In this document: positions 54,293-58,532 of the stretch, in pieces | Layout: the number at the start of each line of letters is the position of its first letter | Numbering within the stretch: position 1 is the first letter of the stretch | NCBI RefSeq assembly: GCF_016863035.1 | Contig: NZ_BOOC01000001.1 | Location: 124,001 to 188,000, forward strand | From: Microbispora corallina | Lineage (GTDB): Bacteria; Actinomycetota; Actinomycetes; Streptosporangiales; Streptosporangiaceae | Length of the DNA stretch: 64,000 nucleotides | Direction: 5' to 3' | Notes under the pieces: generated by a model | What the model was told of the DNA's origin: nothing | The model's database searches: none | What the model saw: only the letters and a program-made list of their open reading frames with translations | Made by a program: the position numbers and the translations under genes

Positions 54293-55231
54293 CTATCCGT
54301 CCCCGCGGCGGCCCAGGTCAGGGCCGCCTCGCTCCTCCTCGGCCAGGCGGAGGCCCGCTTCGATCACGGCGTTCATGACGGGCCGCAGCAGCTCCTCGCC
54401 GAGGCGCGGCGCCCGGCGGGCCATGGCGGCGACGAGGCGGCGCTCGCGGTCCATGTCGCGTCCGCGGAAGCCGCCCACGGGCTTGAGCCGCTGCACGGTC
54501 CCGGCGAGGGCCGCGCGCCGGTCGAGCAGCGTCGCGAGGGCCGCGTCGACGCGGTCGATCGCGCCCCGGGCGGCGTCCAGGCAGCCGGGCTCCTCACGCC
54601 GGACGAGCGGCGCGAGCACGGTCGCCGCCTCGCGGGCCTCGTCCGCCGCCGCCGCGGTCCCCGCCGTCCCCGGGCCGAGCATCAGGCCGTCGGCGCCCGC
54701 CGCCACGGCCGCGGCGGCGAGCGAGCCGTCCTCGCCGAGCGCCGCGAGGACCGGGCGGCCCGACCGCTCCCGCGCGGCCCGCAGCAGGGCGAGGTCGAGC
54801 GTCACCCCGCCCAGGTGGGTACGGCTGCCCGACTCGCAGAGCGCCACGCGGTCGTTGCCCTCGGCCCGGCAGTACTCGGCCACGGCCAGCCACTCCTCCA
54901 GCGTGGCGGCCTGGCCGCGCTGCACGACGACCGGCAGCCCGAGCCGCGCCGCCGCGCGGACCAGCGCGAAGTCCTGCATCCAGGCCGCTCCGATCACCAC
55001 GCCGTCGGCGTGCCCGGCGATCGCCGGCAGGTCGGCGGCCGAGAACGGCTCCACGAGCAGCGGGCCCGCCCACTCGGTCCGGGCCTTGGCGATCGCCTCG
55101 TCCGCGGCGACCCGGCCGTGCGCCTCCCGCAGGCTCAGCCACCGCGCGTCGTCGCCGCCGATCACCCCGACGGGGTGTCCGTGTCCGACGGTCAACGTCC
55201 CGATCCGTACGGCACAGGGGTCTTCGGTCAT
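54293..55231 (-). CDS. DAHP-synthase-like domain fused to chorismate mutase
   Basis: The 312-aa protein has an N-terminal half resembling class I-beta DAHP synthase (VVIGAAWMQDFALV, VVVQRGQAATLEEW, GNDRVALCESG, then TLDLALL) but lacking the N-terminal PEP/metal motifs and with altered key residues, so aldolase activity is doubtful. The last ~85 residues are an AroQ chorismate mutase domain (DRVDAALATLLDRRAAL, Lys in QRLKP, DMDRERRL). AGGAG is 5 nt before the ATG. It lies downstream of an aromatic leader peptide and terminator, implying Phe/Tyr/Trp control. Confidence 0.75.
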   Translation of the reverse strand: MTEDPCAVRIGTLTVGHGHPVGVIGGDDARWLSLREAHGRVAADEAIAKARTEWAGPLLVEPFSAADLPAIAGHADGVVIGAAWMQDFALVRAAARLGLPVVVQRGQAATLEEWLAVAEYCRAEGNDRVALCESGSRTHLGGVTLDLALLRAARERSGRPVLAALGEDGSLAAAAVAAGADGLMLGPGTAGTAAAADEAREAATVLAPLVRREEPGCLDAARGAIDRVDAALATLLDRRAALAGTVQRLKPVGGFRGRDMDRERRLVAAMARRAPRLGEELLRPVMNAVIEAGLRLAEEERGGPDLGRRGDG

Positions 55232-55266
55232 CTCGGCTCCTCGATAGGCCGGTCGCCCGGAACCGG

Positions 55267-55298
55267 CTCGTCTGACAACGACACTCGTCTGACAACGA
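55267..55298. repeat. 15-bp direct repeat between attenuator and gene start
   Basis: CTCGTCTGACAACGA occurs at 55267-55281 and again at 55284-55298, directly downstream (in transcription sense) of the terminator. It may be a protein-binding site or a slippage duplication. Confidence 0.8.
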
Positions 55299-55325
55299 AA
55301 AAGGCAGAGGCGTCGCGCCTCTGCC
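55298..55325 (-). terminator. intrinsic terminator of the aromatic attenuator
   Basis: In the minus-strand transcript a perfect 10-bp stem GGCAGAGGCG/CGCCTCTGCC with a 3-nt loop is followed by five U residues. A U-run is unusual in this window and marks a factor-independent terminator. It sits between the leader peptide and the DAHP-synthase-like/chorismate mutase gene. Confidence 0.85.
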
Positions 55326-55329
55326 CTCA

Positions 55330-55388
55330 GCCGGCTCCGGATCCTGTCGCTAGCTCACCGTCGAGCGACCGGCCCTCCCGGAGCCGGC
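55330..55388 (-). promoter_or_regulatory. leader RNA stem of the aromatic attenuator
   Basis: GCCGGCTCCGG in the transcript (55388-55378, beginning in the Trp codon) pairs perfectly with CCGGAGCCGGC (55340-55330), which ends just before the terminator. An inner stem (55346-55351 with 55364-55369) lies within the loop. A ribosome on the leader peptide would disrupt this 11-bp stem. Confidence 0.6.
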
Positions 55389-55414
55389 CACGTAAAGGTG
55401 AAATACCGAGCCAT
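55355..55414 (-). CDS. aromatic leader peptide
   Basis: The 19-codon ORF reads MARYFTFTWPAPGGPVARR, with Tyr, Phe, Phe and Trp clustered in codons 4-9. AAGG lies 8 nt before the ATG. It precedes a stem structure and an intrinsic terminator upstream of a chorismate-pathway gene, the arrangement of ribosome-mediated transcription attenuation. The rest of the 322-nt gap (55415-55553) shows no other gene. Confidence 0.75.
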   Translation of the reverse strand: MARYFTFTWPAPGGPVARR

Positions 55415-55520
55415 GCGTCCGACCTTAGCAAACGCTCCAGCCGATCCGGGATGGCCTGTCTCATATTTCGGAATTGGGGTAGAGGGCACGGCGCGGTCAG
55501 GTTGATCCCTTTGCCATCCA

Positions 55521-55532
55521 TGGGACGATTCA
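55521..55532 (+). promoter_or_regulatory. 12-mer shared by the two Ser/Thr kinase genes
   Basis: TGGGACGATTCA lies 21 nt before the GTG of this kinase and an identical copy at 63101-63112 lies 20 nt before the GTG of the other. Equal position suggests a promoter or regulator site. Confidence 0.45.
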
Positions 55533-55553
55533 TGCGTCCAGGAAGGGGTTCGT

Positions 55554-58532
55554 GTGGCGCGTGCGGAAGGCCGGCTCGTCGGAGGCCGGTACCAGTTGAT
55601 GGAGCCGATCGGCCGTGGCGGCATGGGCGTGGTCTGGCGCGCGCATGACCGGCTGCTCGACCGCGCGGTGGCGGTCAAGGAGGTCCGCTACGACAGCGCG
55701 ATGGGCGACGAGCTCAGCGACCTCAACCGCAGGACCATGCGCGAGGCCCGGGCCGCCGGCCGGCTCACGCACCCCAACGTGGTCGTCGTCCACGACGTGA
55801 TCGAGGAGGACGAGCGCCCCTGGATCATCATGCAGCTCGTCCAGTCCCGGTCCCTCGGCCAGGTGATCAGAGAGGACGGCCCGCTCTCCCCGGAGCGGAC
55901 GATCGAGATCGGGCTGCAGATCCTCGACGCGCTGCGCGCCGCCCACCGGCAGGGCGTACTCCACCGGGACGTCAAGCCGGAGAACGTGCTGCTCACCGAC
56001 GACGGGCGGGTCGTGCTGACCGACTTCGGCATCGCCCGCCTGGAGGCAGACTCCACGATGACCCGGACGGGCCTGGTCGGCACGCCCGCGTTCATCGCCC
56101 CCGAACGGCTGCGGGGAGAGCCCGCCCAGCGGGAGTCGGATCTGTGGTCTCTGGGCGCGACCCTGTACACGGCCGTGGAGGGCAGGCCGCCCCACGACCG
56201 GGGCATGGCCATGGCCACGATGCACGCCGTGCTGAACGAGGACCCCGCCCCCGCCGCCCGCGCCGGGCGGCTCGGGCCCGTCCTGATGCGGATGCTGGCG
56301 AAGGAGCCCGCCGACCGTCCCGGGTACGACGAGCTCGCCCGGCTGCTCAAGCAGGCGCTGCGCGAGGCGGCCCTCCCCACGACCAAGCCCCTGCCGGCCG
56401 CCCCCGCGGAGGACGCGAGGCCGTCGGCGGGCAGGCAGCCGTACGCGTCGCCGGGCGAGCCCCCCTCCACCGGGTCCCGGGCGGGGAGCCCCTCGCGTCC
56501 GGCCGCGCCCTCACGCGACGCCGCGGGTGCCGCCGGAGGCGCGGGAGCGGCCGGTGGTGCGCGTGGTCCGGGCTCCCGCAAGACGCCGACAGGACCCTCC
56601 TCCTCGGACGGCCCGGCCTCGGGCGCCGACGACAAGGCTGCGGGCGGAGCCCCGGCGAAGGGCCGTCCGGCAGCCGGCGCGGGCGACGACCGCCCTGAAA
56701 GCGCAGCCGCCGGAGCGACAGGCGGTGCCGCAGGCGGGACCGCCGGAGACGCGGCGGCCGGGCCTCGGGCCGGGACCGCCTCTGGGACCGGGACCGCGGC
56801 CGGCGAGACAGACGGCGCGGCCGCCCGGGGGGCCGGCGCGGCCCGCACGCGGGCGGCGACCACAGCAGGCGCAGGCTCGACGGGCGCCGCGTCCGGCAGA
56901 GGGGCGAGCGCGTCCGGCACGGGGGGCACGGCCGCGTCCGGCGCGGGCGCGGCGGTCGCTCAGGAACGGTCGGGCGACGCCGGCGAGGACAGGCCCCCAG
57001 CCGGTCCTGAGCCGTCCGGCGCCTCCCAGGCCGCGACGGGCGCCTCCGGCTCTTCGCGCGTCACCGGGGACGAGGACGTGCCCGGCCCGGCCGAGGTGAC
57101 CTCGCCGATCCCCGTCGTCCAGGAGGATGTGCCGGAAGCGACGTCCGGGCCTGTCGCGGACGACGACACCGGTTCGGCCGGTCCGTCGTCATCCGGCGAG
57201 GAGGCTCCGGGCGTCGACGAGGGCCCGGCGGACGCGCCCGCCCGCGACGGCGCCACCCGGATCGCCCCCGCGGTGGGCCGTACCGGCGGCCAGGAGGGCC
57301 GCCCGGGCACCGGCGACCGGTCCGGGGCCGCGAAGGGCGCGGCCCCGGCGGCGCTCTCCGGGACGGCGGCGGGCTCGGGCAGCCGCGCGGAGCCTCCGGA
57401 CGGCGCAGCCGGGGCGGGCGGCAGCGGGAAGGCGGATGCCGCGGGCGACGCGGCCCAGGCGAGCATCGGCCGCCGCGAGACCGCCCCCGGCGCTGGCCGG
57501 GCGGGCACCACGGGCGGCGCCACTGCCGACGCCGGCCGAGACACACACGGAGACCTGGGCGACGCAAGCCGGGCGGGCACCAGCGGCAGCGGTGCGGCAC
57601 GCGGCGCGACGCCCGACGCCGGGCGGGCGGGCACGGCGGACCGGGCGGCCGCGAGCCGCGCCGTCGGCGACCTGGGCGCGGAGGGCGCCTTCCACCAGGG
57701 CGGCCGGTTGGCGCCGGACCCCGGGAACGGGGCGGGGGCGGCCGTGCCCACCCAGCGCGGCAGGGTCTGGAGCGGCGACTCGGCGACCGGGCCGGTCCGC
57801 CAGAGCCGCGCCCCCATGCTCAAGATCGCGCTGGTCCTCGTCCCGGCGCTGCTCGCCATCGCGGCCGTGGCCGGCTACCTCGGGCTGCGGGAAGGCGAGC
57901 GCAGTTCGGGCCAGGCGACCGGCCCCGCCACCACGGGCGGGCCGACCCACAAGGCCACGAACGGCGCCTCGCAGGCCCCGCCGTCCCCGGCCTCGTCGGC
58001 CCCGCCGTCCGCCTCGGCGTCGCCGAGCGACGAGGGCACGCCGTCCCCCTCCGCCACGTCCTCCCCCAGTCCCACGGCCTCGAAGCCGGCGGACGCGCCC
58101 GACGGCTGGCACCGGTACAAGGACTCGACGGGCTTCTCGATCGCCCTCCCCAAGGGCTGGAGCGCCTACAAGCGCAGCGGGACGGCGGTCTACTTCCACG
58201 GTCCCGGCACCTCCGGCTTCCTCCTGATCGACCAGACGAGCAGTCCCCGCAAGGACGCCAAGAAGGACTGGGAGAACCAGGAACGCGCGCGGCGGTCCAC
58301 GTTCGCCGACTACAAGCGCGTGAAGATCGAGTCGGTGGACTACTGGGACGAGGCGGCCGACTGGGAGTTCACGTTCGCGTCGGGCTCGGGCCGCCAGCAC
58401 GTGGTGAACCGGGGGTTCGTCACGGACAAGCACCACGGTTACGCCATCTACTGGAGCACCCCGAGCAGCAGCTGGGACGAGGACCACCACTACTTCGAGA
58501 CCTTCACCGCCACCTTCAAGCCGGCGAAGTGA
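55554..58532 (+). CDS. membrane Ser/Thr protein kinase with extracellular domain
   Basis: The 992-aa protein has a Hanks-type kinase domain (about 10-270): GRGGMGVVW glycine loop, catalytic Lys42 (VAVKEV), HRDVKPENVLL and DFGIA, then GTPAFIAPERL. A ~480-residue Ala/Gly/Ser-rich disordered region follows, one transmembrane helix (755-778), a Pro/Ser/Thr stretch, and a C-terminal extracellular domain (about 850-992, starting GWHRYKDSTGFSIALPKGW). No PASTA repeats. The extracellular part is probably the sensor; the ligand is unknown. Confidence 0.92.
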   Translation: MARAEGRLVGGRYQLMEPIGRGGMGVVWRAHDRLLDRAVAVKEVRYDSAMGDELSDLNRRTMREARAAGRLTHPNVVVVHDVIEEDERPWIIMQLVQSRSLGQVIREDGPLSPERTIEIGLQILDALRAAHRQGVLHRDVKPENVLLTDDGRVVLTDFGIARLEADSTMTRTGLVGTPAFIAPERLRGEPAQRESDLWSLGATLYTAVEGRPPHDRGMAMATMHAVLNEDPAPAARAGRLGPVLMRMLAKEPADRPGYDELARLLKQALREAALPTTKPLPAAPAEDARPSAGRQPYASPGEPPSTGSRAGSPSRPAAPSRDAAGAAGGAGAAGGARGPGSRKTPTGPSSSDGPASGADDKAAGGAPAKGRPAAGAGDDRPESAAAGATGGAAGGTAGDAAAGPRAGTASGTGTAAGETDGAAARGAGAARTRAATTAGAGSTGAASGRGASASGTGGTAASGAGAAVAQERSGDAGEDRPPAGPEPSGASQAATGASGSSRVTGDEDVPGPAEVTSPIPVVQEDVPEATSGPVADDDTGSAGPSSSGEEAPGVDEGPADAPARDGATRIAPAVGRTGGQEGRPGTGDRSGAAKGAAPAALSGTAAGSGSRAEPPDGAAGAGGSGKADAAGDAAQASIGRRETAPGAGRAGTTGGATADAGRDTHGDLGDASRAGTSGSGAARGATPDAGRAGTADRAAASRAVGDLGAEGAFHQGGRLAPDPGNGAGAAVPTQRGRVWSGDSATGPVRQSRAPMLKIALVLVPALLAIAAVAGYLGLREGERSSGQATGPATTGGPTHKATNGASQAPPSPASSAPPSASASPSDEGTPSPSATSSPSPTASKPADAPDGWHRYKDSTGFSIALPKGWSAYKRSGTAVYFHGPGTSGFLLIDQTSSPRKDAKKDWENQERARRSTFADYKRVKIESVDYWDEAADWEFTFASGSGRQHVVNRGFVTDKHHGYAIYWSTPSSSWDEDHHYFETFTATFKPAK

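Follow-up and report, generated by a model that had tools for sequence, protein, structure and literature searches.

The window, that is, the whole 64,000-nucleotide stretch of Microbispora corallina DNA analyzed here, very probably carries on its minus strand, upstream of a chorismate mutase gene, an aroR-type attenuator of transcription, leaderless and ribosome-mediated, that responds mainly to the charging of tRNA-Phe and perhaps to that of tRNA-Tyr. This reading is built on a conserved leader ORF and its control codon, two helices (A:C and D:E), the spacing to a -10 hexamer, and the association with the gene (Table 1). The positions given in an earlier, sequence-only reading of the window for the leader ORF, an 11-bp stem, and a terminator are borne out by the letters: segment A begins on the third base of the Trp codon and pairs perfectly with segment C over 11 bp, and the terminator (GGCAGAGGCG-CGA-CGCCUCUGCC, 55325-55303) has 10 perfect bp, or 13 when outer and G-U pairs are counted, followed by a U5 tail that ends at 55298. 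An intrinsic terminator, recognized from sequence and covariation and predicted to cause termination, is thus present between the leader ORF and the gene. The leader itself is a short ORF with codons for the pathway product, and among ORFs of 10-35 codons on both strands of the window it is the only one with at least four aromatic codons in any six; 20 dinucleotide-shuffled windows contain 0.15 such ORFs on average, none of them close to a terminator. The 120-nt leader folds with -63.9 kcal/mol (z = -4.17), a value reached by none of 200 shuffles, and the distance from codon 7 to the start of A is 5 nt.

Table 1. Features of the leader element and of the gene behind it, in positions of the window (for the element, minus-strand nt 1 = 55414)
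Feature	Positions	Strand	Remarks and basis
-10 hexamer TAAGGT, extended (TGC before)	55422..55427	-	7 nt 5' of leader ATG
Leader ORF, MARYFTFTWPAPGGPVARR then stop	55355..55414	-	19 codons; YFTFTW = codons 4-9
Tyr (TAT) and Phe (TTC), codons 4-5	55400..55405	-	auxiliary control codons
Phe codon 7 (TTT)	55394..55396	-	the conserved control codon
Trp codon 9	55388..55390	-	not conserved; overlaps stem base
Segment A, GCCGGCUCCGG	55378..55388	-	alternative partners: B or C
Segment B, GGGCCGG	55369..55375	-	A:B alignment test
Segment C, CCGGAGCCGGC	55330..55340	-	covariation
Segment D, terminator 5' strand	55316..55325	-	covariation
Segment E, terminator 3' strand and U5 tail	55298..55312	-	covariation and sequence
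Hairpin GCCGGU...ACCGGC	55248..55267	-	after terminator, directly 5' of Shine-Dalgarno
Shine-Dalgarno GAGGAG	55237..55242	-	sequence
Controlled gene	54293..55231	-	partial DAHP-synthase-I-like domain and C-terminal chorismate mutase type II

The proposed mechanism runs as follows. Transcription would start at or adjoining the leader ATG, and a ribosome would load on the 5' end of the transcript. With Phe and Tyr plentiful, it would pass codons 4-7, reach the stop codon in the B-C loop, and leave, upon which A:C and D:E would form and the polymerase would stop at the U-tract. With tRNA-Phe uncharged, the ribosome would be expected to stall at the rare UUU codon 7, where a footprint of the usual size would cover the 5' half of A. 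A:C is the stem that such a ribosome would block, leaving C free beside D, so that the terminator would fail more often and chorismate mutase would be made. A candidate for the link between freed C and reduced termination is the weak C:D pairing (GCC:GGC and neighbours); mapped onto the classical scheme, A, C, D, and E would stand for segments 1, 2, 3, and 4, with 2:3 as the weak point. Translation of the leader, stalling, and the direction of the response are what we infer from the sequence.

To see how far the element is conserved, we turned to the host family, where a protein search finds the chorismate mutase gene in 124 of 297 genomes; upstream DNA was examined for 121 loci, the contig ending at the gene in G012, G075, and G200. 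The leader anchor is present in 41 of 41 seed loci, and the profile built from them matches 71 of 80 further loci. Leader peptide, stem, and terminator thus accompany this aromatic-pathway gene in 112 of the 121 orthologues (L062, a partial match, and L100, a weak one, are doubtful). L074, L090, and seven loci from a single genus, g34 (L115-L117 and L119-L122), make up the nine without a profile match. The frames of these seven are all 259 aa long and give matches from residue 55 or 56, so that gene start and leader may both be lost or moved. One genome of the g34 group, G141, has a weak covariance-model match (E 3.8e-4; place within the genome unchecked).

Setting aside L062 and L078 (no terminator by our rule) and L082 and L100 (no anchor) leaves 108 leaders, and covariation was assessed in the 52 non-redundant members of this set with anchored leader and terminator. 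Standard pairs occupy 98.0% of the 1352 cells over A:C, B:C, and D:E, and for 7 of 26 pairs there are one or more sequences with both sides changed, values that 0 of 500 shuffles reach. A:C is paired in 97.4% of cells and D:E in 98.8%, each with three pairs changed on both sides. A:B, at 99.2% paired, shows little variation (one pair changed on both sides, a value reached by 21 of 500 shuffles), and as an alternative pairing it is compatible with the alignment. Helix scans of two separate alignments, one of chorismate mutase leaders and one of DAHP synthase (DAHPS) leaders, rank D:E first in both and A:C second in the former and third in the latter. The start codon and frame of the leader are kept in relatives, 11 leaders having one extra codon, in frame, and in 94 of 108 loci the terminator hairpin runs into a stretch of four or more T residues. 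The alignment of related loci that the sequence-only reading had suggested as a check thus finds leader ORF and stems conserved and the helices covarying.

As the codon before A, 104 of 108 leaders have TTT, 3 have TTC, and 1 has GTC, counts that are conditional on a search anchor requiring one of a few such codons; the alignment beyond the 108 has TTT in L062, L078, and L082 as well, and not in L100. Up to the conserved codon, Tyr is present in 74 of 108 leaders and absent from 34, Trp is present in none, and there may be as few as one Phe codon per leader. Trp follows two codons after the conserved Phe in only 2 of 108, the window leader (L001) and L052. In four genes of the window, TTT makes up 1 of 84 Phe codons and TAT 1 of 72 Tyr codons. 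With TTT before the stem in 104 of 108 leaders and Trp in 2, the conserved signal is Phe, often with Tyr, and not all three aromatic amino acids.

The sequence-only reading had proposed ribosome-mediated attenuation sensing Tyr, Phe, and Trp together. Its mechanistic class is our best reading too, whereas we regard sensing of all three in this species as unlikely: codons 4-9 of the window leader do contain one Tyr, two Phe, and one Trp codon, stalling at codon 9 would likewise place a ribosome over A, and Trp is used in 26 of 42 DAHPS leaders of the same kind (see below), but the Trp codon of the two chorismate mutase leaders comes after the conserved Phe, inside the stem base. Moreover, chorismate mutase belongs to the Phe/Tyr branch of the pathway and not to the Trp branch. 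Trp codon 9 could nevertheless act in this species.

Since the leader ATG follows so closely on the -10 hexamer, the transcript is probably leaderless, with a predicted start at or adjoining the ATG. All 64 relatives that could be named have a TAnnnT hexamer 5-9 nt upstream of the leader start (7 nt in 44, 6 nt in 17), their starts having been picked with a preference for such a hexamer; a consensus scan for a sigma-70 -35/-10 pair before the leader gave none that passes. We also note that the leader frame is open further upstream, as a 107-aa ORF from a TTG (window 55355-55678, minus strand) that runs antisense to the start of a Ser/Thr kinase gene at 55554; because of this open frame, automatic annotation may miss the real start.

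As antiterminator, a pairing of UGCCCUC (55488-55482) with GAGGGCA (55328-55322) had been suggested. The two are complementary as letters, but the UGCCCUC strand lies ∼55 nt upstream of the -10 hexamer and so is probably absent from the transcript. When the 110 nt preceding the leader start were searched for a perfect 7-nt partner of the GAGGGCA stretch, the window locus was the only one of 108 to have one. We have therefore dropped this pairing.

Among the pairings examined in the 108 loci, none competes convincingly with D:E as an antiterminator. Local folds of C to D have a median of -5.1 kcal/mol (calculated without a shuffle control), compared with -19.2 kcal/mol for D:E, and the GCC:GGC core of C:D is 99.4% paired and invariant, so that covariation is silent on it; being weak and invariant, C:D was not accepted as antiterminator. 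Pairing of the 5' leader (CGUUU) with D shows no excess over shuffles and, by eye, breaks in a genus with GGCAGAGCC terminators, and C:E (CGGAG:CUCUG) appears in the helix scan but is, by eye, missing from leaders with other terminators, such as L203. Two further candidates were set aside: pairing between codons 8-9 and the bases that follow C (on average 1.22 of 3 flank pairs, versus 1.02 in shuffles, 0 of 1000 as high, over 107 loci and with kinship ignored) and frameshifted reading past the leader stop, for which the +1 frame is, by eye, not open in all groups. The presence of a GCC-GGC-GCC triple makes a short antiterminator possible.

Control could in principle be exerted mainly when the chorismate mutase mRNA is translated, by the hairpin that precedes the Shine-Dalgarno sequence and resembles A in its 5' strand. 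By eye, similar GCCGG-hairpins are present in most of the 24 loci looked at, and control of aroR is termed translational in the accessible text of PMC7356990; yet a strong terminator with a T run of at least 4 lies upstream of it in 94 of 108 loci. We hold this account to be the least probable of those weighed here. The 5' strand of the hairpin has two possible partners, C and the GGAGCC in the Shine-Dalgarno region.

The gene behind the leader had been described as DAHP-synthase-like/chorismate mutase. The chorismate mutase domain is confirmed (PF01817, 1.6e-9, residues 222-296), whereas the DAHPS part (PF00793, 1.7e-15, residues 57-184) is partial, covering profile positions 89-231 of 270, and looks catalytically dead. 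Alignments to two solved DAHP synthases give significant matches from residue 53 or 58, one of them adding a non-significant stretch at residues 7-26. Neither a GPC nor a KPRTSPY-type segment is present in the fused domain, which has other residues in place of the DPSHS-type stretch; we take these three to be catalytic segments of type-I DAHP synthase. GPC and KPRTSPY-type segments are present in three frames of the same genome that resemble complete type-I enzymes (named by motif and similarity, not by family scan), and the genome also has a type-II DAHPS above the Pfam cut-off. Given this separate type-II enzyme, the fused domain is probably either a relic without catalytic activity or a part with a regulatory role. 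Some leader-bearing chorismate mutases seem to be without the DAHPS-like part (matches start at residues 205-234), and the leader therefore goes with chorismate mutase, not with the fusion.

We then asked where else the element occurs. Applied to the host genome, a covariance model finds one copy, plus two weak antisense echoes at the same site; it matches 232 of 345 genomes of the order (E ≤0.001) and 64 of 394 of the class (E ≤0.01). Thirty-five matches were inspected singly (L181-L215), of which 9 lie before chorismate mutase, 23 before DAHPS, and 3 before neither: L197 ends before the gene, and the class-level matches L208 and L209, with neither gene in the DNA examined, are probably due to chance. 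Three genomes (G460, G487, and G505) have the element in front of each of the two genes; the chorismate mutase leaders there read MRTYTAF or MRTFLDF, and the DAHPS leaders have RSSYF, RYPYF, or RYSYF at their ends. One divergent case among the inspected loci is L207 (G676:C2), before DAHPS, in which, by eye, the C strand seems to form the next hairpin (GAGCCGG...CCGGCUC, without U-tract), possibly a simpler or divergent form of the arrangement.

For a wider search, we used a core pattern of 25 bases that fixes parts of A, C, and D and leaves the leader codons and the genes untouched, and applied it to 84,980 species, one genome each. It gave 67 matches, of which 66 lie before chorismate mutase or class-I DAHP synthase; the remaining one (L282, in a Desulfuromonadaceae MAG), with neither gene in the DNA examined, was attributed to chance. 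Matches before chorismate mutase come from Streptosporangium, Planobispora, Planomonospora, Microtetraspora, Actinomadura, and others, and those before DAHPS from Glycomyces, Jiangella, Phytoactinopolyspora, Dactylosporangium, Tomitella, some Streptomyces, Nonomuraea, and others. Because the pattern itself fixes A, C, and D, these named sets say nothing on the conservation of the three segments. Leaders could be read for 64 of the 66 (in L225 and L275 the start is too near the locus end): before chorismate mutase (n = 22), 0 have Trp, 11 Tyr, and 22 Phe, and before DAHPS (n = 42), 26 have Trp, 42 Tyr, and 39 Phe, neither set consisting of independent lineages. Since both kinds of leader are without Trp in G460, G487, and G505, the Trp contrast is not valid in every lineage. 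The DAHPS leaders write Tyr as TAT in 51 of 52 codons and Phe as TTT in 39 of 41, compared with 0 of 155 Tyr codons and 1 of 262 Phe codons in the genes that follow. Two structural observations apply to these loci: the control-codon region and the stop-codon loop are complementary and GCGC-rich, giving a helix (UCGGCG/CGCUGA), one of the smaller candidates ranked after D:E and A:C in the helix scan, that would form an alternative hairpin around A:B, and, by eye, a GGCGGG...CCCGCC hairpin often stands where chorismate mutase loci have the GCCGG-type hairpin.

These codon data also bear on whether the RNA might be a metabolite- or protein-binding element in which the ORF is incidental. In our judgement, A, C, D, and E look more conserved in primary sequence than pairing requires, and the tested pairings yielded no antiterminator; on the other hand, the frame is kept through one-codon insertions, TTT is swapped for TTC in 3 of 108 leaders, codon content tracks the downstream enzyme, the rare codons TAT and TTT are used, and there is no match in Rfam. 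We consider a binding element very unlikely. The Rfam 15 scan of the window at gathering score returned 0 matches to T-box or any other described RNA family, and a scan of seven loci with E up to 1 returned a single match, to a microRNA family at E 0.79.

An attenuator remains the preferred reading, and its closest known counterpart is the aroR leader before aroF (DAHP synthase) in Corynebacterium glutamicum, the original work on which is reportedly that of Neshat et al. in 2014. Like the window leader, aroR is a short ORF with aromatic control codons before an aromatic-pathway gene; it controls DAHP synthase, whereas the window gene is a chorismate mutase with a partial DAHPS-like domain. Descriptions of it appear in the accessible parts of PMC11802643, PMC7356990, PMC4046766, and PMC3890552. 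According to these excerpts, the aroF leader has Phe-Tyr-Phe (PMC4046766), and transcription rises on Phe limitation with no effect of Tyr availability (PMC11802643), which disagrees with the account of a translational control by phenylalanine and tyrosine (PMC7356990). The conserved Phe codon fits what the excerpts of PMC4046766 and PMC11802643 say of aroR.

Using a 27-base C. glutamicum aroF start with 3 mismatches, we located a Corynebacterium-like aroF leader (the genus is inferred) in 1 of 401 genomes of that family. It reads MFAARFYFMTGSGASPRKLAINCAS then stop (MFAARFYF...), with a -10 hexamer 8 nt upstream of the ATG; CCGGCUCCGG and CCGGAGUCG and then a terminator come ahead of a DAHP synthase start. 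In this one genome and by eye, the A/C core (CCGGCUCCGG/CCGGAGUCG) and the terminator are thus common to the aroR type and the window leader, whereas A:B pairing looks weaker and the terminator sequence differs.

Other known systems share less. The pheA leader of E. coli has many Phe codons and is not leaderless, and its enzyme is a chorismate mutase fused to prephenate dehydratase, unlike the window gene. The likeness, by description only, is Phe-tRNA-dependent attenuation of a chorismate-mutase-domain gene (excerpts of PMC11802643). The trp attenuators of Corynebacterium and Streptomyces have a leader peptide and a terminator, as in the window, and double or triple Trp codons, in contrast to the single conserved Phe codon here (Seliverstov et al., 2005; accessible text of PMC1262725). 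The same text describes short complementary triples shared by actinobacterial trp terminators and antiterminators, to which the GCC-GGC-GCC in C, D, and E corresponds, and states that RNA structures conserved ahead of phenylalanine or tyrosine operons were not seen. A literature search, mostly without subscription papers, found nothing on an actinomycete chorismate mutase attenuator; as the class is known and aroR is a known member before DAHPS, it is the chorismate mutase version and its codon set that appear to be new.

Several points count against an attenuator: 34 of 108 leaders have no Tyr and some have a single Phe codon, unlike the repeated control codons of trp leaders; there is no strong antiterminator; 9 of 121 orthologues are without a profile match; and aroR is called translational in the excerpted PMC7356990. 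The antiterminator that was expected and not found leaves a clear mechanistic question. A more tentative reading is that, in actinomycetes, DAHPS and chorismate mutase share a single ancestral leader RNA, by descent or transfer, and that codon swaps have re-tuned it: Trp, Tyr, and Phe for many DAHPS genes, Phe and Tyr for chorismate mutase. In this view the very strong terminator would be switched with no classical antiterminator involved, the removal of A:C itself being the signal.

The covariance model provides a description of an element without a match in Rfam 15, and dependence on Phe becomes directly testable. If the shared-leader reading is true, codon choice matched to the position of the enzyme in the pathway would amount to a natural experiment on how attenuator specificity changes, and actinomycetes, antibiotic producers included, would share an RNA switch on two committed steps of aromatic metabolism.
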